NCBI GenBank assembly: GCA_944351395.1
Contig: CALVPP010000010.1
Coordinates: forward strand, 1 to 34,042
Direction: 5' to 3'
Origin: an uncultured Bacilli bacterium
GTDB lineage: Bacteria > Bacillota_I > Bacilli_A > RFN20 > CAG-826
Length of the DNA: 34,042 nucleotides
Made by a program: the position numbers and the translations under genes. Below, in pieces: positions 2,038 through 32,372 of the stretch. Position 1 is the first letter of the stretch; the number at the start of each line of letters is the position of its first letter. Below the pieces are notes generated by a model, which saw nothing but the letters and a program-made list of their open reading frames with translations, was not told the DNA's origin and did no database searches.

Positions 2038-2868
2038 TTACGCTTTGAACTCAACCACGTAATGATGAGGAATTTGATTTTCTTTTTTAGGCGGGGTCAT
2101 GTAATCAATTCCGAAACAAGCAATCAAATTCTCTTCTGCTAATTTTGGGGCGTCCAGCAGCCTTCCTTCAAATTGAACTGAACTTCTGCCCTCGAATAAT
2201 TTTACGGGGCGACGTCTTCCTAAATTTAAACCGACTGAAACAACGGATGTCTTTTTTATGGTGTGTTTATGCAAAAAAGAGTCTCTCCATTTGGCAGCAA
2301 GACTCCTAGGACACCACCACAGCAAAATCCAAGAGATAACATCTGCGATTTTAGAAGTTCTTTTTTTCTTCACAACAGCACCAGGTGGAATCAAAAACTT
2401 AGGAGTTGCTCTTCTATTTAATATGTAGAGTTTAAAATAGAACAAATAGTAAGAAAAATTTTTATTTTCTGGAACATAATAAATTGGAAAGATATCAAGA
2501 AAAATTCCTTGTCTCCATTTTGTTTTCTGAATCGAATATTCTATATAGACGGTATCTCGCTTCGTAAGTTTAGAATAATGATGAAAATAAAACCTATTAG
2601 ATTCTCTATTATCAATATAGTACTTCGAACTATTATCAAAATCTTTAATTAATTTCAAATAATCTCCTATTGGCATACAAACATCTATATCATCGTCCCA
2701 AGGAATATAACCATGATGTCTTATCGCCCCTAAAAGAGTTCCACCAAACAAATAATACGTAAGGTTGTGTTCTTTACAAAATGTTACAAAAACATCTAAA
2801 AGTTCTAATTGTACTTGCTTAAGTTTTTTGCGTTGATTATTGTCTAAATCAACAATTGGTTTAATCAT
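2038..2868 (-). CDS. LicD-family phosphotransferase (first copy)
   Basis: This 276-residue protein carries the two hallmark motifs of the LicD/fukutin nucleotidyltransferase fold: GGTLLGAIRHHGYIPW (42-57) and WDDDID (57-62), whose aspartates bind the metal. LicD proteins transfer phosphocholine or other phospho-alcohols from CDP carriers onto teichoic acids or glycans. No licA/B/C choline genes are seen here, so the donor is more likely CDP-glycerol or a similar compound made by the fusion protein at 16583-18037; this is inference. The ATG is preceded by a strong AGGTGG ribosome binding site. It stands as a single gene on the minus strand with a long AT-rich region upstream. A second, divergent copy lies at 15473-16363. 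Confidence 0.9.
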   Translation of the reverse strand: MIKPIVDLDNNQRKKLKQVQLELLDVFVTFCKEHNLTYYLFGGTLLGAIRHHGYIPWDDDIDVCMPIGDYLKLIKDFDNSSKYYIDNRESNRFYFHHYSKLTKRDTVYIEYSIQKTKWRQGIFLDIFPIYYVPENKNFSYYLFYFKLYILNRRATPKFLIPPGAVVKKKRTSKIADVISWILLWWCPRSLAAKWRDSFLHKHTIKKTSVVSVGLNLGRRRPVKLFEGRSSVQFEGRLLDAPKLAEENLIACFGIDYMTPPKKENQIPHHYVVEFKA

Positions 2869-5155: not shown

Positions 5156-6418
5156 ATGAAAATATTGCTAGTGTGCGCTAATCCTATGAATAAATCTTCT
5201 TCTACTCGTGCATTTTACACGTATTTTGGTCATGAAAAAATTGAACTAGCCCAAATTTATACGAATGATCAAAAAATTGACACTAAAGCATGTCCTAATT
5301 TTTATAACATTACAGACGCTACAATATTAAAGAGGCTTTTGAAGAACAAAAACAACAAATATAACAACGTTAGAACTACTAACAGTGATTGTGAAACAAA
5401 AAAGAATGGCAAATTATTGAACTTATTAAAAAAGATAGGCAAAAAAGAATGGCCTATCATCCAGTTACTTCGTAAATCGCTTTGGAAACAAAAAAGATGG
5501 TTGAAAGAGGATCTTATTGAATGGGCTAAAGATTATGATCCTGACTTAATCTTTTACCACAATAGCAACGCTTTTTTTCTTGGTGATATAGCATTTACTC
5601 TCGCTAATTTATTAAATAAGAAAATAGTGATAGAAGTAAGCGATGATTATTATTTTAATAGTCACTTCTCTTTATCGCCTTTCTATTACATCTATAGAGC
5701 TAAATACAAAAAACACTTCGAAAATAACATTAAAAAAGCAGATGGCATCATTTATATTTCAGAAAAAATGAAAGATAAATACGATAAAGAATTTTCTGTA
5801 ATCGGTGAAGTGATTCACATCAGCAGTCAGTTAGAAAGCGTTAAAATTACAAATGAAATCGTACCAAATAAAATTAATTATTTTGGAAATATTGGTCTTG
5901 GTCGCTATAAAACACTAAAACAAATCGGAAAGCAATTGTATAAGAGTCGCAACGACTATTCGATTGACGTCTATTGCCCTGCTATTGGGAATAGTGTCAT
6001 CAAAAAACTTGCACACGCTAAAAATGTGAAATATGCTGGTAGTTTAAACTACGAACAAGTTGTAGAAAAAATGATGAACAGCAAATATCTACTTCTGGTT
6101 GAAAGTTTTTCGAAACGCAATTTAATAGATATTAGATACTCGTTATCGACGAAAGTAGCTGATTATTTATATTCTGGCGTTCCTATCTTAGCAATCGGAC
6201 CAAGTGAAAGCGGAACGATACAATATTTAAAAGAAAATAATTTAGCATTTGTCATAAGTCGTCCAACTGAATTTTTGAACATATTAAATAACATAACAGA
6301 GCAAGAAAAAAAATTAGTTATTAGTAATTGTTACAAAATCGCAAATAGTGAATTTAGCCAAACTAAAAACCTGATAAAATCATTCAAATATCTTCAGAAA
6401 ATATTAGTTTCTAATTAG
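5156..6418 (+). CDS. GT4-like glycosyltransferase
   Basis: This 420-residue GT-B type enzyme starts MKILLVCANPMNKSSSTRAF, followed by a nucleotide-sugar binding C-terminal half with KINYFGNIGLGRYKTL and STKVADYLYSGVPILAIGP, the acceptor-independent signature of capsule GT4 enzymes. An AAAAGGA ribosome binding site lies seven bases before the ATG, and the gap to the preceding glycosyltransferase is 41 bases, so the pair is one operon. Its 3' end overlaps the convergent flippase gene by eight bases. A clear relative with the same N-terminal layout (SSN/GRS near the start, GKLGDCICSLKPFLYIGP near the end) is found at 18940-20229. The substrate is unknown. Confidence 0.85.
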   Translation: MKILLVCANPMNKSSSTRAFYTYFGHEKIELAQIYTNDQKIDTKACPNFYNITDATILKRLLKNKNNKYNNVRTTNSDCETKKNGKLLNLLKKIGKKEWPIIQLLRKSLWKQKRWLKEDLIEWAKDYDPDLIFYHNSNAFFLGDIAFTLANLLNKKIVIEVSDDYYFNSHFSLSPFYYIYRAKYKKHFENNIKKADGIIYISEKMKDKYDKEFSVIGEVIHISSQLESVKITNEIVPNKINYFGNIGLGRYKTLKQIGKQLYKSRNDYSIDVYCPAIGNSVIKKLAHAKNVKYAGSLNYEQVVEKMMNSKYLLLVESFSKRNLIDIRYSLSTKVADYLYSGVPILAIGPSESGTIQYLKENNLAFVISRPTEFLNILNNITEQEKKLVISNCYKIANSEFSQTKNLIKSFKYLQKILVSN

Positions 6419-7985
6419 ATTTTTTAAATATTTTTAAAATTTTAGAATTAATGATATTTCTTTCGTTTTTAGTAAGCCCTATGAAATATGTGAGGCCGAG
6501 ATATAACACTACGAAAACTGAACCTTCGATAAGAAATTTATATAAGACACCATGAGTAATTGCGCTGTCAAAACTTAAATAAAAATGCATGGTTAGTGCA
6601 ATAGGTAAACATAAGATAGCTACAATCAGCATTCTAAAATAAGTTTTTTTATAAAATGTGAATAAAGATACATTTAATTTTTTCAAATAAAAATAGTTTC
6701 TTAGGCATATATCTACGAAGGAACTAATCATGATAGCAAGTGACGCGCCCATGAATCCCAAAATATATGAAAGTCCAAAAGATAATCCGACACATATTAT
6801 AGCTTTCACGATTGCTGATAAAGCAAGCATCTTCACATTATTAGTAGTGAACATTGCGGATCTTAAAACTAATTGTGGTAAATACAATATTTGCATTATG
6901 ATTGCAATTAAAATACCATAATAGGCTGGAAGATACGAACTATCACCTCTCATCCAAATCAAGACAAATTCTTGTCCAAAACATCCAAAAGCAAGAATGA
7001 TAGCCATGATGATGACTAGCTGTACTTTACCAATCGCTACGGAGAGATTAAGCAATTTCTTTCTAAACACTTCTTCACCCTCTTCATAATACCTAGCAAG
7101 TTTAGGGAGAAGCGTTGGCCCAAGTATGTTACCCATCAATGTAGTGTAATAAAGTATTAAACTCACCAATCCAAATAAAGCAATGTTAGTAGAATCGGAC
7201 ACGATGCCTAAAATACTTGGGGAAATGGACGCACTAATGTGAGTAAAAATACCTTCGATTGCCGCCCATAAAGAGTATAAAAGAACCGGTTTAGCAAGTG
7301 CCCAAGTCATCTTGTTGCGAAAAGTTGGCTTTACTTTCAACTTGAATCGAATAATTAAATATTTTATACCTATGATAACTAGATTAGAACCAGCATTAAT
7401 GGCTACAAGTGCATATAATCCCCATTCGAAAACTATGCTAATAGATGTAAAGATGATGAACAATAATTTTTGAACAATATCTAAAAATTTGATCCAGATT
7501 ATTTTTTCATAAGCATTGATAATTCCGTTGAATATAGAAGTTGGTAAAGATATCAAACTAAAGGCTGCAAATATCAAAAAACAAACTTGAAATTGCTCAA
7601 TTTCGCTGGGAGTTAAACCTTGATAAATATAAGGTGAAACAAAATACAATACAACAAAAACAACGAATATAATCGCATCAATTATTAAATAAAGTTTGTA
7701 TATGAGACCTAAGAAATTTTTAATTGCTCCATCGTCATTATTCGCACGATATTTTGCCAAAAAGGCATTGGCGGTAGCACTAAGACCAAAATCAATTAAA
7801 AATAACGATATAAGAGAGTTGGACAACGTATATAGTGAATATTGACTTTGCCCTAGACTTTCTATAATCCATGGTGTAAATAATAAGCCTGATAAAATAT
7901 TGATGCCGATGGCAATATAACCCATTATGGCACCAATGAATATCTGTTTGTTTGCTTTTTTTTCAATATTTTGTATCTCTGTCAT
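6411..7985 (-). CDS. Wzx-type oligosaccharide flippase (first copy)
   Basis: This 524-residue integral membrane protein has about 12-14 hydrophobic segments, the layout of the polysaccharide-transport branch of the MOP superfamily. The conserved N-terminal region (FIGAIMGYIAIGINILSGL, then TLSNSLISLFLIDFGLSATA) moves lipid-linked repeat units across the cytoplasmic membrane. It aligns along its whole length with the second flippase at 13897-15435, including the phrase (S/N)SIFGLV-type loops after ILGI(V/T)SDST. The ATG has no strong ribosome binding site, and a TATAAT lies about 40 bases upstream. It is the last gene of a minus-strand group with the acyltransferase at 8114 and the glycosyltransferase at 8778. 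Confidence 0.92.
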   Translation of the reverse strand: MTEIQNIEKKANKQIFIGAIMGYIAIGINILSGLLFTPWIIESLGQSQYSLYTLSNSLISLFLIDFGLSATANAFLAKYRANNDDGAIKNFLGLIYKLYLIIDAIIFVVFVVLYFVSPYIYQGLTPSEIEQFQVCFLIFAAFSLISLPTSIFNGIINAYEKIIWIKFLDIVQKLLFIIFTSISIVFEWGLYALVAINAGSNLVIIGIKYLIIRFKLKVKPTFRNKMTWALAKPVLLYSLWAAIEGIFTHISASISPSILGIVSDSTNIALFGLVSLILYYTTLMGNILGPTLLPKLARYYEEGEEVFRKKLLNLSVAIGKVQLVIIMAIILAFGCFGQEFVLIWMRGDSSYLPAYYGILIAIIMQILYLPQLVLRSAMFTTNNVKMLALSAIVKAIICVGLSFGLSYILGFMGASLAIMISSFVDICLRNYFYLKKLNVSLFTFYKKTYFRMLIVAILCLPIALTMHFYLSFDSAITHGVLYKFLIEGSVFVVLYLGLTYFIGLTKNERNIINSKILKIFKKSN

Positions 7986-9861: not shown

Positions 9862-9967
9862 CGAAATAGATTTTTTCGACAAAATCCTGTGTGTATGTGA
9901 TATTCTATTTAATATTGAAAGGATGTCTATTTTTTAGTTGAAATAATCTAGAAACATAAGCGTACAG

Positions 9968-11224
9968 ATGACAAGTTTTCTTAGGAAATGCAAAAAAGTT
10001 ATTAAAACTGAGCTATCATATTTAGTTCTAACACTTTTTAGTGCTCTTTTAATCACTGCACTTTCTTTATCTACTTTTATCGTTTCGTTTTCTATGCCTG
10101 TCGAATCTATATCACGCTATTTGGAATATATGCCATCACACACGTTATTAAATTTTACTTATGGTGAAGTGTCAAAAACTGATGTGGATGAGAGTTTCTA
10201 TAATTTTTTTGATATTGTTGATGGTAAAGGTGGTAATGATTTTAAGGATGTGTCTGATACTTATTTTTTGAAAAATGATGATGAAGATTATCATCCGTTA
10301 CTAATCAATGAATTTAATATAAATTGTGACATACTTTTAATGACGAGTTGGGATTTGAACTTATATAATTTAAATTTCGTTTTTGAAACTAACAGTTTAG
10401 AAACAAAAATATTATCATCCGACGAAATTTATATTTCTGACAAGCTAGCTGATAAATTACTGGACGAAGGGAAAAATTATGATGATTTATTAGACACTTC
10501 TATCGATTGCGAAACGATGCGATCATCGACGTCAAGCATCGTAAATAGAAGTTTTAAGATAAAAGGCATAGTAGATACCGACAATGAAAGTTCAAATATC
10601 ATCAAGTATAAATTCGTCGATACAGAAAATCTTGTCATCATGTCTTATCCTTCGGTAGTTAACGTTTTTACGCAACTAAAATACTGTTTCATAATGTACG
10701 AGAGTTTCTTATCTATCAATTATGTTTTAGGAAGAATAACCGATTACGTGTCAAATCATGAAATATACGAAACTTGCATTTTTGATTATGATGCGAATCT
10801 AAATCAGTTAGTAATAGGAGAATCAAATTTGTATTATCGCAACACAATAAATAGTCATAATCCCATTTGGATAGGGGTTCTAATCATAGTCATTTTATTG
10901 TTGTTAATTGTTTTTCATTTCGGTATATTATTCCAATATTTGATTTTTAAACATGGTTCATATGAAATGAGGATTTTTTTCTATTTCTTAACATTTTTGA
11001 TGCCTGCTATATTTCTTGTTATTTTGTTTCTGTTTTGTCCTTACATAATTTCTAGCGGAATCGTATTCAGCACAATCAATTCAAATTTCATCATTTTTTA
11101 CCTTCTGCTCATGATTGCGGCAGTTCCATATTGTTATAAAATTTATGTAATCAATGTTTTGCAAAACAAGTTCACCTACATTTTATCAAGAAGAAAGATT
11201 GAAGAAAGAGAGACAACTATATGA
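9968..11224 (+). CDS. FtsX/MacB-like ABC permease, orphan
   Basis: This 418-residue protein has the topology of MacB/FtsX permeases: one N-terminal membrane segment (about 17-43), a large external domain (44-298), then three or four membrane segments (299-325, 334-360, 372-395) and a basic tail (LSRRKIEE). Inside the external domain, EIYISDKLADKLLDEG (153-168) and SFKIKGIVDT (195-204) match the conserved core of MacB-type periplasmic domains. No ABC ATPase gene is present in the window. The ATG has no ribosome binding site. Its stop overlaps the start of the EpsG-like polymerase gene (ATGA), so the two are translationally coupled. A role in polysaccharide assembly or its control is inferred from that coupling alone. 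Confidence 0.65.
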   Translation: MTSFLRKCKKVIKTELSYLVLTLFSALLITALSLSTFIVSFSMPVESISRYLEYMPSHTLLNFTYGEVSKTDVDESFYNFFDIVDGKGGNDFKDVSDTYFLKNDDEDYHPLLINEFNINCDILLMTSWDLNLYNLNFVFETNSLETKILSSDEIYISDKLADKLLDEGKNYDDLLDTSIDCETMRSSTSSIVNRSFKIKGIVDTDNESSNIIKYKFVDTENLVIMSYPSVVNVFTQLKYCFIMYESFLSINYVLGRITDYVSNHEIYETCIFDYDANLNQLVIGESNLYYRNTINSHNPIWIGVLIIVILLLLIVFHFGILFQYLIFKHGSYEMRIFFYFLTFLMPAIFLVILFLFCPYIISSGIVFSTINSNFIIFYLLLMIAAVPYCYKIYVINVLQNKFTYILSRRKIEERETTI

Positions 11225-13861: not shown

Positions 13862-13889
13862 TTGACATTATAGTGAGCAACTATATAAT
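13862..13889 (+). promoter_or_regulatory. Consensus promoter of the second flippase, leaderless geometry
   Basis: TTGACA (13862-13867), a 16-base spacer and TATAAT (13884-13889) are both perfect hexamers. The -10 ends seven bases before the ATG at 13897, so the transcript should begin at or one base before that codon. An upstream in-frame GTG at 13873 lies inside the promoter spacer and is therefore unlikely to be the start. Confidence 0.7.
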
Positions 13890-13896
13890 AGTCGAT

Positions 13897-15435
13897 ATGA
13901 GCGAAAACGTCGAATTTAAAAGTAGAAAAAATATCTTACTTGGTTCAATTATTGGTTATGCAACAATATTTTTGAATATTATCTTCGGTCTTTTTTCCAT
14001 TCCACTCATCATCAGCATGGTCGGAGAGTCTGGTTACGGACTCTTTACTCTTTCTACCTCAATTATCAATTCTTTTGTCATTGATTTTGGTTTAGGCACA
14101 GTTGCAAATCACCATTTATCTAAAGCACTGGCGGAGAAAAATGATGAACATTTTAAAATAACTCTTACACTCATTTATCGCATATATCTTATTTTAGACA
14201 TCATTTTCTTCGTCATTATCGGTACTCTAGTTTTATTTTCTAATCAGATTTTTGTTGGCCTCACACCTGAAGAACAAGAATCATTTAAGATTGTTCTTTC
14301 GATGACTGGACTGTTCAGTATAGTGGCTTTACCATCCACTATTTTTAATAGTGTTTTGTCTGCTCACGAAAATTTTTTCTTCATAAAAGTCGTCAATTTG
14401 ATATCTAGAATTCTTTATATTGGCGTCACATTAGCGGTTCTGTTTTTAGGCGGTGGCCTATATGGTCTTGTTCTTTCTCATATAGGCACTTCTTTCGTTT
14501 CGATTCTTGCGAAATTTATTTATATGAAAGCTAAATATAGAACAAAGATAGATTTAAAACGTAAAATATCAAAAATAGAAGTGAAAACAATTCTTGCTTT
14601 TTCTATTTGGGCGTGCATTCAAACTTTGTGCAATAGGTTCTCTGCTACTTTCCTTTCGCCAATACTAGGAATAACTAGTGACTCTACACAAATTGCTATA
14701 TTTGGCGTTATCTACACTTTTGAAAACTATATTTCAATGATTGCTAATGTTATGAGTGGTTTTTTCCTGCCTAAACTAAACCGTATAAATGCTTCTCAAA
14801 ATAAAGAAGAACGTTTGAAACAGATGGCCACTTTCGTCGGTAAGGCACAGACATTCCTTATTTTACTAATTATTATCGGATTTATCTCCTGTGGTAGAGA
14901 ATTCATTTCTGTTTGGATTACAGGCACAGACTCTTTTGACAGTGTTTATATGGGAACCATTTTCATTATAATAGTTGATTTGTTTTATATTCCTCAGTAC
15001 GTCCTTTACACAGCGATGTTCACAGAAAAAGGTAGAATGAAACATCTTGCTTACACCGCCATCGCAAAAACCGTCATTTGCTATACGATTGTTTTCCCTC
15101 TCACCATATATTATGGTGCGATAGGAGGCGCCTTAACAATTGCAATATCAAAAATAATAGAGATATTATTTCAAAATTATTTTTATAAAAAAGATTTGCA
15201 CATTAATCTTCTGCCTTATTATAGAGAAACATATTCGAGATTTGTATTACCATCTATCGCTGCACTTATGTTTGGCTTAATTATTAAATTTGGCGATGGA
15301 AGCAATTGGGCAAAAATTATTAAAACTATCATTATAGTTACCATAGTTTTTGGGGTATTCTCATATGTTTCGTTGAAAAAAGAAGATCGAGATCACTATT
15401 TATCAATCTTAAAAATTAGACGTAAAAAACATTAA
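13897..15435 (+). CDS. Wzx-type oligosaccharide flippase (second copy)
   Basis: From the ATG at 13897 this is a 512-residue membrane protein with about 12-14 hydrophobic segments, homologous throughout to the flippase at 6411-7985 (compare ILLGSIIGYATIFLNIIFGL and FVIDFGLGTVANHHLSK). The start is chosen for two reasons: the promoter -10 ends seven bases upstream, and the N-terminus MSENVEFKSRKNILLG aligns with the paralogue MTEIQNIEKKANKQIFIG. There is no ribosome binding site. The LicD gene follows after 37 bases on the same strand. Having two flippases suggests two different lipid-linked repeat units. Confidence 0.92.
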   Translation: MSENVEFKSRKNILLGSIIGYATIFLNIIFGLFSIPLIISMVGESGYGLFTLSTSIINSFVIDFGLGTVANHHLSKALAEKNDEHFKITLTLIYRIYLILDIIFFVIIGTLVLFSNQIFVGLTPEEQESFKIVLSMTGLFSIVALPSTIFNSVLSAHENFFFIKVVNLISRILYIGVTLAVLFLGGGLYGLVLSHIGTSFVSILAKFIYMKAKYRTKIDLKRKISKIEVKTILAFSIWACIQTLCNRFSATFLSPILGITSDSTQIAIFGVIYTFENYISMIANVMSGFFLPKLNRINASQNKEERLKQMATFVGKAQTFLILLIIIGFISCGREFISVWITGTDSFDSVYMGTIFIIIVDLFYIPQYVLYTAMFTEKGRMKHLAYTAIAKTVICYTIVFPLTIYYGAIGGALTIAISKIIEILFQNYFYKKDLHINLLPYYRETYSRFVLPSIAALMFGLIIKFGDGSNWAKIIKTIIIVTIVFGVFSYVSLKKEDRDHYLSILKIRRKKH

Positions 15436-15472: not shown

Positions 15473-16363
15473 ATGAGTATTAAATCAGCAAAAAATATTC
15501 TAACAAATAATTTGTCTCAATATATTTTGAGCGAAAAACAACTACAACTTCTTAAAAGTGTGGAGTTATCTATTTTTAATGATGTCTATAATTCTTGCAG
15601 AAAACGCAATATACCTTTTTATCTAATGCATGGCACGATGCTTGGTGCGGTAAGACATAAAGGTTTTATTCCGTGGGATGATGATATAGATACAGCTGCT
15701 TATCTAGAAGACTTAGATAAAATTAAAGAAGCAATAAAGATAGATTATCCACAAAAGTATGAATTCGCAGGAATTTTTGAAGATTATAACGCTAATCCAT
15801 TCTATGGATTAAAAATCATGCTAAAAGGCAGTTTGGCTATCGAAATGAGTTCGGAAAATTTTCCAAATCCCAAAGGGGTATTCATCGATATTTTTCCTAT
15901 TTTCAAAACTAGCCCTAAACTCAAAAAAAGAAATAAATTATATAAAAAAATAAAGTTCTGCATGCATATTGGTGCTTTAACTTTTGAATATAAATATCCG
16001 CCAACTACGCTTATAAGCATGAAAAATAGTGTTGGAAAATATTATCGTAGACGTCGTCTAATTGGTCGTTTTTTATCTCCGTTTTACAAATTATCAAGAA
16101 AGAAAATCTTAAAAATTTATCATCTATACGACAATAAGAATAGCGATTATTATGCGATTAACATCGCTATTGGTCTGAAAAATAAATATAGCATAACAAA
16201 AGATATTTTAAATGAAACGAGTGAATACGAATTTGAAGGTCGTAAGTACGTTTCTCTTGCCAATTACGATTACTTACTAAAAGCACAATATGGCGAAAAT
16301 TATATGACTTTACCTCCTTTAGAAAAAAGAGAAAGACATATGATGTTAAAAATAAAAATTTAA
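15473..16363 (+). CDS. LicD-family phosphotransferase (second copy)
   Basis: This 296-residue protein has the LicD signatures HGTMLGAVRHKGFIPW (53-68) and WDDDID (68-73) and, further on, VFIDIFPI (about 137-144), the same order as in the copy at 2038-2868. It should transfer a phospho-alcohol from a CDP carrier to a glycan. It follows the second flippase by 37 bases and is probably in the same transcript, with only a weak purine-rich sequence before the ATG. It lies tail to tail with the gene for the cytidylyltransferase fusion protein, the most likely maker of its donor in this window (inference). Confidence 0.9.
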   Translation: MSIKSAKNILTNNLSQYILSEKQLQLLKSVELSIFNDVYNSCRKRNIPFYLMHGTMLGAVRHKGFIPWDDDIDTAAYLEDLDKIKEAIKIDYPQKYEFAGIFEDYNANPFYGLKIMLKGSLAIEMSSENFPNPKGVFIDIFPIFKTSPKLKKRNKLYKKIKFCMHIGALTFEYKYPPTTLISMKNSVGKYYRRRRLIGRFLSPFYKLSRKKILKIYHLYDNKNSDYYAINIAIGLKNKYSITKDILNETSEYEFEGRKYVSLANYDYLLKAQYGENYMTLPPLEKRERHMMLKIKI

Positions 16364-16582: not shown

Positions 16583-18037
16583 CTATTTATGTTTAATTTC
16601 TTCTACTAATTTAGTTGAAGATACTCTTTTTGTATATGGTAGATATACTACATCAACACCGATATCTTTTAGTTGTTTTTCATAATTATTCCACTTTTCG
16701 GTATTTTTCCAATCGTCCCCTACCACTATTGCATCAATTTCGTAATGCTTGCACGCTGCTACCTTGTCCATATTCTCTTGCACGACAGCTTTGGTGACAA
16801 AAGGTAATGCTCTTACGAGTCTTACTCTATCTGCGAAAGCGATGATTGATTGTTTACCTTTATAGGAAACTAAATCATCAGATGTAACACCGACGATTAA
16901 TTCATCGCACATTTTACTCGCTCTTTTTAAAATATTTAAGTGACCGATATGGAACATATCATAAACACCTGTCGTATAAATGCGATGATACTTATTAAAA
17001 CAACGATTTCTTAAAAGATATAAGTAATGATCGGCAGAATAAGTTAACCATTTTTCTTCATCTCTAGTGCATCTTTCATAAGCATCTTCATAGAAGATAT
17101 CTTTATTTATAATCTCGCCATAATAATTTGCCCATATTTTTAGTGGCCTTGGTAATGGGTATTTACGAGGAACAAATAAATCACCAACTCGTTCTCTAAA
17201 TAATTCTCTTAAAAAATATTTTTCTTCACCGTTTTTGATTCGCTGATAATCCAATTCAAAATCACGATGAATGTATTCATAAGGTGCTTTTAAAGTAATA
17301 CCTGCAAGTTTCATCGCATTATTAAAATATTTTGTCGTAGCGGTCCCATAGATCTCTGACATGAATTCATCTAATTTAAAATATGGTTCATCATTATAAT
17401 CTTTATAAAAATCATATGGTTCTGCTTCAACTTTCATCACTTTATTAGGATTAACAAAAGTGTAGCGTTCTTTAAATTCTTCATTAGTCCATTTTTTGGA
17501 TAATAAGTTAAATAAACCACCAAAGCATAAATCCGCTCCAGAACCAGTGATAAGATTTTCTAATCCAAAATCTAATGCACGTACCGCCATCTTATGAAGT
17601 CCTATTTCAATAGGTGAAAGAGGTTCACCTTTTTGAAGCATTAAATCATCTTGATAATCTAAAACATCTTGAAATGTAACAGGAACTTCGATGAGTCTTA
17701 ACCCAAATTTATCAGCGTAGATTCTCGCTTGATTAACTTCATCCACTCCTTCCGTTTCAGGATATTTAAGAGTGAACGCTAATGTATTTTTCGGAAGATA
17801 AGATGCAAGTAGAGCACTATCAATACCACCACTTAAACAAATACCAGTCTTATTAAAATCGAGTTTACTAAAATATTTTTTTAAATATTCATCTAAATCT
17901 TTCTTAGTATTAATATTGACTGTTGGTCTTTTTTCAATACTTAAATCTATTTTTTTACCACCTAAAGGACTCGTATCCTTTGGCATATCCCTTTGCACTA
18001 AGAATGTAGCGATACATCTTTCGATTGAGTTATTCAT
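16583..18037 (-). CDS. Asparagine-synthase-like domain fused to a glycerol-3-phosphate cytidylyltransferase
   Basis: This is a 484-residue two-domain protein. Residues about 60-310 form an asparagine-synthetase-type ATP-pyrophosphatase domain with the PP-loop SGGIDS (69-74), TGSGADLCFGG (164-174) and a basic RKYPLPRPLK. The glutaminase domain that normally precedes it (with Cys2) is missing. Residues about 352-484 form a complete TagD/GCT-type cytidylyltransferase: YTTGVYDMFHIGHL (354-367, HIGH nucleotide motif), VGDDWK (439-444) and RVSST (471-475). It should make CDP-glycerol or a related CDP-alcohol from CTP. The N-terminal domain would adenylate a carboxylate, perhaps a uronic acid, for amidation. 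The ATG at 18037 has an AGGAGA ribosome binding site; a TTG 27 codons upstream is not used. Confidence 0.88.
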   Translation of the reverse strand: MNNSIERCIATFLVQRDMPKDTSPLGGKKIDLSIEKRPTVNINTKKDLDEYLKKYFSKLDFNKTGICLSGGIDSALLASYLPKNTLAFTLKYPETEGVDEVNQARIYADKFGLRLIEVPVTFQDVLDYQDDLMLQKGEPLSPIEIGLHKMAVRALDFGLENLITGSGADLCFGGLFNLLSKKWTNEEFKERYTFVNPNKVMKVEAEPYDFYKDYNDEPYFKLDEFMSEIYGTATTKYFNNAMKLAGITLKAPYEYIHRDFELDYQRIKNGEEKYFLRELFRERVGDLFVPRKYPLPRPLKIWANYYGEIINKDIFYEDAYERCTRDEEKWLTYSADHYLYLLRNRCFNKYHRIYTTGVYDMFHIGHLNILKRASKMCDELIVGVTSDDLVSYKGKQSIIAFADRVRLVRALPFVTKAVVQENMDKVAACKHYEIDAIVVGDDWKNTEKWNNYEKQLKDIGVDVVYLPYTKRVSSTKLVEEIKHK

Positions 18038-18171: not shown

Positions 18172-18936
18172 ATGAGCATTAGAGATAACGATTTTAAGGT
18201 ATCGATAATTACACCCCTCTTCAATGTTAAAAACTATTTTGAAGAGACGTTTTCTAGCGTTATATCTCAAACTTATAAAAATTTTGAATGGATCATCGTC
18301 GACGACATATCCACTGATGGTTCCTATGAATTAGCGAAAAAATTATCACTACACGACGAAAGAATAATACTTTTAAAATTATCTGAAAAAGGTGGGCCCG
18401 CTAAGGCGCGCAACTTAGGTCTAAAAACCGCTTCTGGAAGATACATAACTTTTTTGGATAGTGATGATTTATTAGATGCAAATTATTTAGAAGAGCAAGT
18501 TGCATTCATGAAAGAAAATGGACCATTAATTACTGCTAGTTATAGAAGATTGGCCGCTAAAACAACAACTGATTTTATGGTGCCAAAAATTAGTACTTAT
18601 AAAATGATTTTAAATGGCAATAATTTATCTTGTCTCACGACGATGTATGATCGATATGTAATTGGTGAAAATTATTTTCCAGAAGATTTTTCAAAAGCAG
18701 AAGATTATGTTTTTTGGCTTAATATCTTAAAAAAAGGTTATGTTGCTAAAGGTAATCAAAAAATATTAGCTTCTTATCGAATTTTACCTAAATCACGTTC
18801 AAAAGGCAAAATGAAGCAACTTAGAATTATGTATCATACTTATCATAAAATTTTAGGTATAAATTGGCTTGCAAGTTGCTACCATGTTGTTAGATGGGCA
18901 ATATATGGTCTAAAAAAATATCGACATGTAAAATGA
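18172..18936 (+). CDS. GT2 family glycosyltransferase
   Basis: This compact 254-residue GT-A enzyme has KVSIITPLFN (9-18), IVDDISTDGS (42-51), GGPAKARNLGL (74-84) and FLDSDDLL (94-101), followed by KAEDYVFW in the acceptor region. It resembles the short capsule glycosyltransferases of streptococci and enterics. No hydrophobic anchor is present, apart from a weak aromatic C-terminus. It has its own promoter and no Shine-Dalgarno sequence. It faces the minus-strand operon 26155-18940 tail to tail with only three bases between the two stop codons. The sugar is not predictable. Confidence 0.9.
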   Translation: MSIRDNDFKVSIITPLFNVKNYFEETFSSVISQTYKNFEWIIVDDISTDGSYELAKKLSLHDERIILLKLSEKGGPAKARNLGLKTASGRYITFLDSDDLLDANYLEEQVAFMKENGPLITASYRRLAAKTTTDFMVPKISTYKMILNGNNLSCLTTMYDRYVIGENYFPEDFSKAEDYVFWLNILKKGYVAKGNQKILASYRILPKSRSKGKMKQLRIMYHTYHKILGINWLASCYHVVRWAIYGLKKYRHVK

Positions 18937-28063: not shown

Positions 28064-29671
28064 TTAACTTGGTTTATGATCCACTGCCTCTCCAACAAAT
28101 CCTATAAACAACGGATGCGGTTTGAGTGGTCTAGATTTAAATTCAGGGTGAAATTGTGACGCCATAAAAAATGGATGATTTTTAAGTTCAATTAATTCAC
28201 ATAATTTTGTTTTTGGATTAATGCCGCTGAAGACGACACCAACACGCTCAAAATCTTCTTTATATTCGTTATTAAACTCATAGCGGTGGCGATGTCTTTC
28301 TTTGATATTTTTTTCACCATATAACATCAAAGCTTTTGAACCTTCCATTAATGCACAATCATATTCCCCTAATCGCATTGTCCCGCCTAATTTGATGCCT
28401 TTATATTGATCTGGTAAATAATCGATTATTTTATGAGTAGTGTCGCTATTGAATTCGGTCGAATTTGCGTCTTCATATCCTAATACATCGCGAGCGATTT
28501 CCACTAATGATAACTGCATGCCTAAACATAATCCTAAGAATGGTATATTATTCTCTCTTGCGTATTTAATCGCTCTAATTTTGCCTTCGATGCCGCGACT
28601 ACCAAATCCCCCAGGAACGATGATACCTGATACATCATTAAAGACTTCTTCAACTTTTAAAGTTTCTAATTCTTCGCTATCGACCCATTTGACATTCACT
28701 TTGACGTTATGAAAATATCCAGCATATTTTAAAGATTCGTAAACGCTTAAATAAGCATCATGTAGTTTCACATATTTTCCTACTAAAGCTATATTAACTT
28801 CTTTTTTTATATTTTTAATCTTTTTAATTAATTCTTCCCAATCATCCATCTTCGCTACATCATCGCACTCTAAGCGTAGATGGTTCACGATTAAATCATC
28901 TAGTTTTTGTTTTTGTAAATTAATTGCAACTTCATAAATGACATCGACATCTTTTACTAATATGACTGCATCGTCATCGACATTACAAAATAATGCTACT
29001 TTTCTTTTCGTAGCTTTATCGATATAAACTGGTGAACGCAATAAAATAGCGTCTGGTTGGATGCCTAAACCAGTTAATTCTTTGACACTGTGTTGAGTAG
29101 GTTTAGTTTTAATTTCACCACTTGTAGGAAGATAAGGCACTAGTGTGGTATGAACAAAAAATGTGTTTTCATATCCTAGCTCACGTCTTAATTGCCTAAT
29201 TGTTTCAAAGAAAGGTAATGATTCTATGTCCCCTACCGTTCCACCAATCTCGACGATGCACACATCAGTATTACCTTTTGCGTTAAAACCATCAAATAAT
29301 CTTCTTTTAATTTCATTAGTGATGTGAGGAATAATTTGAATGGTTGCTCCTAAATATTCCCCTCTTCTTTCTTTATCTAGAACCGCTTGATATACTTTAC
29401 CACTCGTAACACTACACTCTTTCGTCAAATCAGTATTAATAATTCTTTCATAATGCCCTAAATCTAAATCGGTCTCTGCACCATCCTTGGTGACGAACAC
29501 TTCACCGTGTTGATAAGGAGACATCGTACCAGGATCGATATTTAGATAAGGATCTAATTTCATAGAGAAGACGTGTAACCCTCTTCTTTTCAATAATCTA
29601 CCAATGCTCGCTGCACTTATACCTTTACCTAAACTAGAGACGACTCCTCCAGTTACAAATATAAATTTCAT
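28064..29671 (-). CDS. pyrG: CTP synthase
   Basis: This enzyme converts UTP, ATP and glutamine to CTP. The N-terminal synthetase domain starts MKFIFVTGGVVSSLGKG with the P-loop, followed by MKLDPYLNIDPGTMSP and GGTVGDIES. The C-terminal class I glutaminase domain has GLCLGMQ with the catalytic cysteine and HPEFKSRP with the His/Glu pair. From the ATG at 29671 it is 535 residues, matching Bacillus PyrG, and its first residues align with the family. GTG at 29698 and ATG at 29686 also lie in frame and no start has a convincing ribosome binding site, so a nine-residue extension is possible. CTP is also the substrate of the cytidylyltransferase in this locus, but as a housekeeping gene the link may be accidental. 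Confidence 0.97.
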   Translation of the reverse strand: MKFIFVTGGVVSSLGKGISAASIGRLLKRRGLHVFSMKLDPYLNIDPGTMSPYQHGEVFVTKDGAETDLDLGHYERIINTDLTKECSVTSGKVYQAVLDKERRGEYLGATIQIIPHITNEIKRRLFDGFNAKGNTDVCIVEIGGTVGDIESLPFFETIRQLRRELGYENTFFVHTTLVPYLPTSGEIKTKPTQHSVKELTGLGIQPDAILLRSPVYIDKATKRKVALFCNVDDDAVILVKDVDVIYEVAINLQKQKLDDLIVNHLRLECDDVAKMDDWEELIKKIKNIKKEVNIALVGKYVKLHDAYLSVYESLKYAGYFHNVKVNVKWVDSEELETLKVEEVFNDVSGIIVPGGFGSRGIEGKIRAIKYARENNIPFLGLCLGMQLSLVEIARDVLGYEDANSTEFNSDTTHKIIDYLPDQYKGIKLGGTMRLGEYDCALMEGSKALMLYGEKNIKERHRHRYEFNNEYKEDFERVGVVFSGINPKTKLCELIELKNHPFFMASQFHPEFKSRPLKPHPLFIGFVGEAVDHKPS

Positions 29672-29848
29672 CTTTGATTTGTCCATATTTTTAGCCACTT
29701 ATCAATATTTCTTCGTATATTGTATATGATTTAAATGGCAACCATAAAAGCATAAATGACGCTAAATACACTTTTATTAGAAAACATGCCTAAAAAGTAA
29801 TTTTATAGTTATGAATAAAGAACTAAGTATTCACAAAAAATAATGGGA

Positions 29849-31442: not shown

Positions 31443-32372
31443 TTATTCTATTAAATCCCATGTCGCGATATTATCAAAAGAAGGATTCATCTCAACACTA
31501 CGTAGACTATTAGAATATTCTAGGCGATAAGAATAACTAAGATTGTTAAGATTCATACAACTCGAGTAAATTGTTTTTTCTTGTTCGTCCCTTTTGCTCA
31601 AGGCAACACCGCGAAAGAAAGATAATGACTTTAACATGTCGATAAAAACTATAATTTTCTTTTCTTCATCTTCTGGTAAATTCACATACTTAGTTAAATA
31701 GGCAGCTTTTAAGAAGCGAGAACGAGATGAGTAATCACCTGGTAAGCCAAAAGAACCAAAGCCGACAGAATCAGGAATAATATTTAAAGATTTGACGTAA
31801 TCATTAAAATATTCATTCGATATTTTTGATAGTTGTTTCACATTATTTAAATGAATAGGAAATATCGGATTATTAGTCAAAACATTTACTGAATTATCAT
31901 AGACGTGTAAGCCATCTTTATCTTGCTCTAAAACGATGGATCTATTCTTATCAGCGAATATGTAATGAAGAGGCGCTAGAGGGATGTCTTTAGAAAAAGG
32001 GACATCGATAAGATTAGCGGTCTTTAAAAAACCTTCCACTTCATCAACGTTTTTGAAATGTGATAAGACATAAGGCAATAATTCATAAGGAGATAAATTA
32101 TTTTTATTCTCTTGAACTTGATTAAATTGTGCATTATCTGGAAAGTTTAAACCAGCACCCGCTAAACCACATTCATTAAATGCATCGAAATAAAGCGGAT
32201 AATCATCTACTAACAATCCTATGCCTAAAATAGCGTAATGGTTATTAGTTTTATCTAAATGAAGAAAAGTAAAAGGGTGGCTTCTAGGAATGAAAATTAC
32301 TTTTCCATTAATTGAATAATCTAAATCTAAATTACGACCGAATAAGTTGTCTTTGCTAATTGCTGTACACAT
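31443..32372 (-). CDS. Choloylglycine hydrolase family enzyme (bile-salt hydrolase / penicillin V acylase type)
   Basis: This 309-residue Ntn-hydrolase exposes its nucleophile as Cys2 once the initiator Met is removed (MCTAISKDNLFGRNLDLD, with Arg13 and Asp16/18). Other family positions are present: AGLNFP (71-78, Asn), LTNNP (165-169, Asn) and LPGDYSSRSRF (210-220, Arg). The enzyme hydrolyses a linear amide. Gut bacteria use it for conjugated bile salts, while relatives act on penicillin V or acyl-homoserine lactones; the sequence alone does not decide. No signal peptide is present, so it is cytoplasmic. No Shine-Dalgarno sequence is seen, and an extended -10 directly before the ATG suggests a leaderless mRNA. 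Confidence 0.9.
   Translation of the reverse strand: MCTAISKDNLFGRNLDLDYSINGKVIFIPRSHPFTFLHLDKTNNHYAILGIGLLVDDYPLYFDAFNECGLAGAGLNFPDNAQFNQVQENKNNLSPYELLPYVLSHFKNVDEVEGFLKTANLIDVPFSKDIPLAPLHYIFADKNRSIVLEQDKDGLHVYDNSVNVLTNNPIFPIHLNNVKQLSKISNEYFNDYVKSLNIIPDSVGFGSFGLPGDYSSRSRFLKAAYLTKYVNLPEDEEKKIIVFIDMLKSLSFFRGVALSKRDEQEKTIYSSCMNLNNLSYSYRLEYSNSLRSVEMNPSFDNIATWDLIE

Follow-up and report, generated by a model that had tools for sequence, protein, structure and literature searches.

A candidate two-step enzyme, with an asparagine-synthetase-like PP-loop domain fused to a cytidylyltransferase, that may prepare an amide-bearing CDP-alcohol for LicD-type transfer

A 34,042-nucleotide stretch of DNA from an uncultured Bacilli bacterium (contig CALVPP010000010.1; the whole stretch is called the window below) encodes a protein in which a PP-loop domain of the asparagine-synthetase C-terminal type is fused to a cytidylyltransferase domain of the TagD fold, and this protein probably acts as a two-step enzyme whose product, an amide-bearing CDP-alcohol, would serve phosphodiester transfer by LicD onto a surface glycan. 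The C-terminal domain would convert CTP and a phosphorylated small alcohol into a CDP-alcohol, and the N-terminal domain would activate a carboxylate with ATP as an acyl-AMP and then attach ammonia or a small amine. Both steps would concern one small molecule, the PP-loop step either preceding or following CDP activation, and the LicD enzymes encoded nearby would pass the phosphorylated unit to the surface glycan. We infer the chemistry and the order of these steps, and we take both domains to serve one small molecule because the PP-loop protein and a cytidylyltransferase are constantly paired.

The reading frame runs without interruption on the minus strand from an ATG at 18037 to a stop codon at 16583-16585, with AGGAG 11 nt upstream of the ATG (Table 1). 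Pfam models were matched above their cut-offs at residues 63-201 (Asn_synthase, E 3e-18) and 354-479 (CTP_transf_like, E 2e-18), and an AlphaFold2 model, for which an alignment of 37 sequences from the window and the fetched loci was used as input, contained two ordered domains (mean pLDDT 90.3, pTM 0.88). Full-length homologues with 71, 71 and 56 % identity were present in other genomes (loci L002, L003 and L004), and an assembly artefact was rejected on account of these independent copies. Given one frame, two Pfam domains and full-length homologues, the fusion put forward in the original prediction is real; the motifs named there were all recovered (SGGIDS, HIGH, GDDW at residues 440-443 and RVSST at 471-475), as was the absence of an N-terminal glutaminase (GATase) domain, none being detected by Pfam scan and only about 40 residues lying ahead of the PP-loop domain. 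Several genera belonging to a single Bacillota family with small genomes retain the fusion, and the fusions form one clade in both the PP-loop and the cytidylyltransferase tree. Both parts gave dN/dS values of about 0.05-0.10 (about 0.10 for the PP-loop part) with dS near saturation, which by sequence comparison indicates purifying selection. Two copies are broken: that in L005, 81-88 % identical, has a one-base frame break (L005:10760-10930, single contig), and that in genome G047 is decayed with stops (contig 9, 15782-16332), so that the trait is being lost, or is phase-switched, or the breaks are assembly errors.

Table 1. Coordinates of the fusion gene, its domains and motifs, other genes of the window, and DUF362 genes in related loci.
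Feature	Position	Strand	Remarks
PP-loop/cytidylyltransferase fusion CDS	16583..18037	-	484 aa; Pfam, homologues, dN/dS
PP-loop domain (asparagine-synthetase C-terminal type)	17003..18037	-	residues 1-345 (about); Pfam PF00733, VIA-align
Cytidylyltransferase domain (TagD fold)	16586..16993	-	residues 349-484; Pfam PF01467, VIA-align
PP-loop SGGIDS	17816..17833	-	residues 69-74; SGGxDSA invariant in 18 relatives save x
Nucleotidyltransferase HIGH motif	16940..16951	-	residues 363-366; kept across the cytidylyltransferase clade
LicD-family phosphotransferase	15473..16363	+	convergent with the fusion; Pfam LicD, E 9e-38
Second LicD-family phosphotransferase	2038..2868	-	in L004, homologue immediately upstream of the fusion
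Family-2 glycosyltransferase	18172..18936	+	divergent with the fusion; homologue near the fusion in L002, L003
Polysaccharide flippase	6411-7985	-	
Polysaccharide flippase, different from the other	13873-15435	+	
CTP synthase	28067-29698	-	about 10 kb from the fusion
Choloylglycine-hydrolase family protein	31446-32372	-	
DUF362 gene	L007:10927-12153		
DUF362 gene	L008:10930-12153		
DUF362 gene	L125:8116-9333		
DUF362 gene	L127:3307-4509		
DUF362 gene	L128:9547-10755		

Alignment of the PP-loop domain to structures of the AsnB type with VIA-align gave Z values of 17-22 across 255-306 residues, with TsnB9, a hydroxyamidotransferase, at 22.3, human ASNS at 20.0, the carbapenam synthetase CarA at 19.5 and E. 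coli AsnB at 17.4. The synthetase fold and the PP-loop SGGxDS are common to the fusion, to AsnB and to its offshoots (beta-lactam synthetase, CarA, TsnB9), whereas AsnB has a glutaminase domain and the fusion has none, the PP-loop domain being instead joined to, or in relatives encoded beside, a cytidylyltransferase. An ordinary asparagine synthetase was rejected: there is no glutaminase, the score against the AsnB model TIGR01536 is 50.5 bits and hence below the cut-off of 267.1 bits, and the position of Glu348 in E. coli AsnB is not Glu. Glu348 has a role in the AsnB reaction according to published work. It aligns with Ser166 of the fusion, where the AsnB motif GxGxDxxFGG reads GSGADLCFGG (165-174); the fusions have Ser or Met at this position and the split relatives have Glu, Asp or Asn, with Glu retained by seven relatives. 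Lys292, Arg277, Arg297 and the PP-loop are invariant in 18 relatives, and Lys292 lies in an R-x-K motif resembling that of AsnB, its pairing with the catalytic Lys449 having been made by motif and by eye. Ser or Met at the Glu348 position could mean that PP-loop activity is altered in the fusion clade.

The C-terminal domain was aligned to B. subtilis TagD with a Z value of 18.9 (rmsd 1.6 over 125 residues) and to the cytidylyltransferase domain of Fom1 with 17.7. The HxGH motif of TagD and its Lys44, Lys46, Arg55, Asp94 and Trp95 (B. subtilis numbering, counted by hand) have equivalents in the fusion, where the HxGH and the two lysines correspond to His363, His366, Lys393 and Lys395, whereas Arg63, Asp66 and Arg113 are replaced by Pro412, Thr415 and Tyr468 and the TagD signature RTEGISTT reads YTKRVSST. 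The original prediction that both active sites look complete thus holds for the motifs and falls short at these three TagD residues and at Ser166; the Pro/Thr/Tyr replacements could alter cytidylyltransferase activity. Against the glycerol-3-phosphate cytidylyltransferase model TIGR01518 the domain scored 79 bits, below the cut-off of 165.4 bits, and in the tree it was placed outside the TagD/TarD clade on a long separating branch (support 100/100); a likeness to ethanolamine-phosphate cytidylyltransferase was also seen. Because the domain is below that cut-off, belongs to a separate clade and is without three TagD active-site residues, 'CDP-glycerol-type', as it had been called, is on sequence grounds a fold label only, and the corresponding enzyme label was given up. 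A substrate call from residues separating PP-loop-associated from other cytidylyltransferases was dropped, since the differences follow clades and therefore permit no call of specificity.

The two domains were also found as separate neighbouring genes in Lachnospiraceae, in Butyrivibrio and on Lactiplantibacillus plantarum plasmids. In Butyrivibrio sp. INlla18 (L006) the cytidylyltransferase, PP-loop and TagF-family genes are consecutive; on six L. plantarum plasmids the cytidylyltransferase gene adjoins the PP-loop gene, and a TagF-family gene precedes the pair on the three whose annotation was read. The L. plantarum proteins, annotated as 'asparagine synthase C-terminal domain-containing protein' and 'adenylyltransferase/cytidyltransferase family protein', have the same two domains as the fusion and are 38 % identical to it overall. 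Their genes lie within a polysaccharide cluster beside a CDP-glycerol glycerophosphotransferase-family gene, two genes and a TagF-type transferase thus standing where the window has one gene and LicD. The pair is uncommon rather than widespread with a known function: a PP-loop-only profile had matches in 5 of 392 genomes sampled from the phylum and in 8 of 348 genomes of the family of Clostridium porci, and no published study of the pair was found among open-licence papers, so that one published elsewhere could have been missed. No PP-loop relatives were found in 369 Gammaproteobacteria and 296 Bacteroidota genomes, both samples being without a positive control, and phage records gave no match.

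All nine split loci newly obtained with the PP-loop-only profile (L121-L129) had a cytidylyltransferase within about 3 kb, and in total the PP-loop protein was fused to a cytidylyltransferase or encoded within about 3 kb of one in 16 of 16 non-redundant loci, which are related to each other and drawn from a sample (4 fused, plus the window, 7 adjacent, 4 one gene apart and 1 two genes apart). With custom profiles built from few members rather than Pfam models, a LicD- or TagF-family transferase was called within 10 kb in 15 of these loci and a UDP-uronate (UDP-sugar) dehydrogenase in one. The coupling of PP-loop chemistry to the making of a CDP-alcohol for LicD, or TagF, that had been predicted was thereby borne out, since the link recurs in all the loci obtained, whether as a fusion or as separate genes, while the predicted tie to a uronic-acid-forming dehydrogenase was not. 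Since 58 loci have the cytidylyltransferase without a PP-loop gene, the PP-loop protein depends on the cytidylyltransferase and not the reverse, and behaves as an optional tailoring enzyme. That cytidylyltransferases of this clade also work where no PP-loop gene is present counts against the amide-bearing product, as it would agree with an ordinary substrate, for instance glycerol-3-phosphate. The PP-loop-associated cytidylyltransferases are spread over several clades of the tree, and the association was therefore made or kept more than once.

Several other features of these loci were recorded. In 5 of the 16 loci the PP-loop gene adjoins one for a DUF362 protein (about 400 aa), which is encoded in none of the 58 loci with the cytidylyltransferase only; this protein is possibly part of the same pathway, and its structure model (pLDDT 51.7) was too poor for a structure search. 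In L124 an aminotransferase gene lies between the split PP-loop and cytidylyltransferase genes. In Clostridium porci (L008) a single locus combines two different PP-loop paralogues (5825-6964 and 9878-10921) with one cytidylyltransferase and three LicD genes. Elsewhere a same-clade cytidylyltransferase ends a 562-aa protein (L068:8753-10441) and a GT2-GT2-LicD protein is encoded directly before the cytidylyltransferase gene (L009:7188-9977).

The LicD gene convergent with the fusion likely encodes the user of the CDP-alcohol, and its homologue, 70 % identical, adjoins the fusion in L005 too. In agreement with the original prediction, the window contains a UDP-sugar dehydrogenase gene, 2.8 kb from the fusion, and two LicD genes. 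The host genome (1.05 Mb, estimated at 99.5 % complete) has these two LicD genes and no others, and four PF01467 proteins, one of which is the fusion and the other three of which fit the housekeeping enzymes CoaD, NadD and RibF by size, one (NadD-like) also by sequence. The only other PF00733 match is NAD-synthetase-like, and there is therefore no ordinary AsnB beside the fusion; matches to NTP_transf_3 comprised a 225-aa protein, IspD-like by reading, and two others, and no PEP mutase was found in this genome. Because of this inventory of LicD, PF01467, PF00733 and PEP mutase genes, the fusion is the best candidate source of the LicD substrate in the host genome. A phosphonate pathway, raised by the PEP mutase and TPP-enzyme (phosphonopyruvate-decarboxylase-like) genes of locus L007 and by the structural match to Fom1, was rejected for the window for want of a PEP mutase in the host. 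The window also holds a CTP synthase gene, which could supply CTP or be unrelated, a choloylglycine-hydrolase family gene, which would make sense in a gut bacterium exposed to bile salts, and two different polysaccharide flippase genes, which suggest two repeat-unit pathways in the cluster or a composite locus.

The PP-loop domain might instead link the amine of an aminoalcohol phosphate such as ethanolamine or serinol phosphate with a carboxylate, for example that of an amino acid, giving an N-acylated decoration and not a primary amide. An amine other than ammonia would fit the missing glutaminase and the fusions' lack of an AsnB-like Glu348, and the aminotransferase in L124 and the resemblance to ethanolamine-phosphate cytidylyltransferase point the same way, but no aminoalcohol-making gene is recurrent among the loci, Glu is kept at that position in the seven relatives, and, as glutaminase-less NH3-dependent synthetases exist, the missing domain does not decide between the two amine sources; we regard this reading as rather unlikely. 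A cytidylyltransferase that makes plain CDP-glycerol (or CDP-choline or CDP-ethanolamine), joined in the fusions to a PP-loop domain that has degenerated or has a purely structural role, is improbable: the lost Glu348 position and a C-terminal fold closest to TagD would agree with this, yet the PP-loop, Lys292, Arg277 and Arg297 are invariant in the 18 relatives, the PP-loop part is under purifying selection and the TagD clade does not include the cytidylyltransferase.

Amidation of uronic acids by asparagine-synthetase-like proteins is known from some O-antigens, and with a UDP-sugar dehydrogenase gene so near, the PP-loop domain could amidate a uronic acid, as nucleotide sugar or in the glycan, the fusion merely joining two steps of a capsule pathway. 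This is highly improbable and was discarded as the principal explanation, because the dehydrogenase is not a regular companion of the PP-loop gene (1 of 16 loci, as against 16 of 16 for the cytidylyltransferase).

For the preferred reading, a two-step enzyme preparing an amide-bearing CDP-alcohol, 2- or 3-phosphoglycerate is tentatively proposed as the leading candidate substrate, which would be converted to CDP-glycerate and then to CDP-glyceramide. Phosphoglycerate is favoured because no substrate-making gene consistently accompanies the pair and phosphoglycerate is a glycolytic intermediate, and because both CDP-glycerate and D-glyceramide 2-phosphate exist in nature: the former is a metabolite made by CpgD, the CTP:phosphoglycerate cytidylyltransferase of Caulobacter crescentus, with D-2-phosphoglycerate preferred (PMC12275187), and the latter is a group of the O-antigen of Providencia alcalifaciens O22 (PMC6222762). 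CpgD would share the first step of the fusion if the substrate is phosphoglycerate, but it has the COG1213 fold, without homology to TagD-type enzymes, and the accessible part of its description mentions no amidating partner (PMC12275187); the likeness is therefore one of analogy and not of homology, and that the sole CDP-glycerate-making enzyme found in the literature has an unrelated fold counts against the amide-bearing CDP-alcohol.

LicD- and TagF-type transferases are widespread, yet few CDP-alcohol donors are known. The pair is a tangible candidate for the type of reaction needed to form the glyceramide phosphate groups of O-antigens; if the phosphoglycerate proposal is true, a CDP-glyceramide synthase would supply glyceramide phosphate for LicD- or TagF-type transfer, a new substrate class for both. 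It would then be the first enzyme assigned to the glyceramide phosphate group, none having been assigned yet to our knowledge. The conserved, sometimes fused pair points to an unassigned donor and suggests that gut Bacillota, as well as culturable, food-grade lactobacilli, have a surface decoration that had gone unrecognised.
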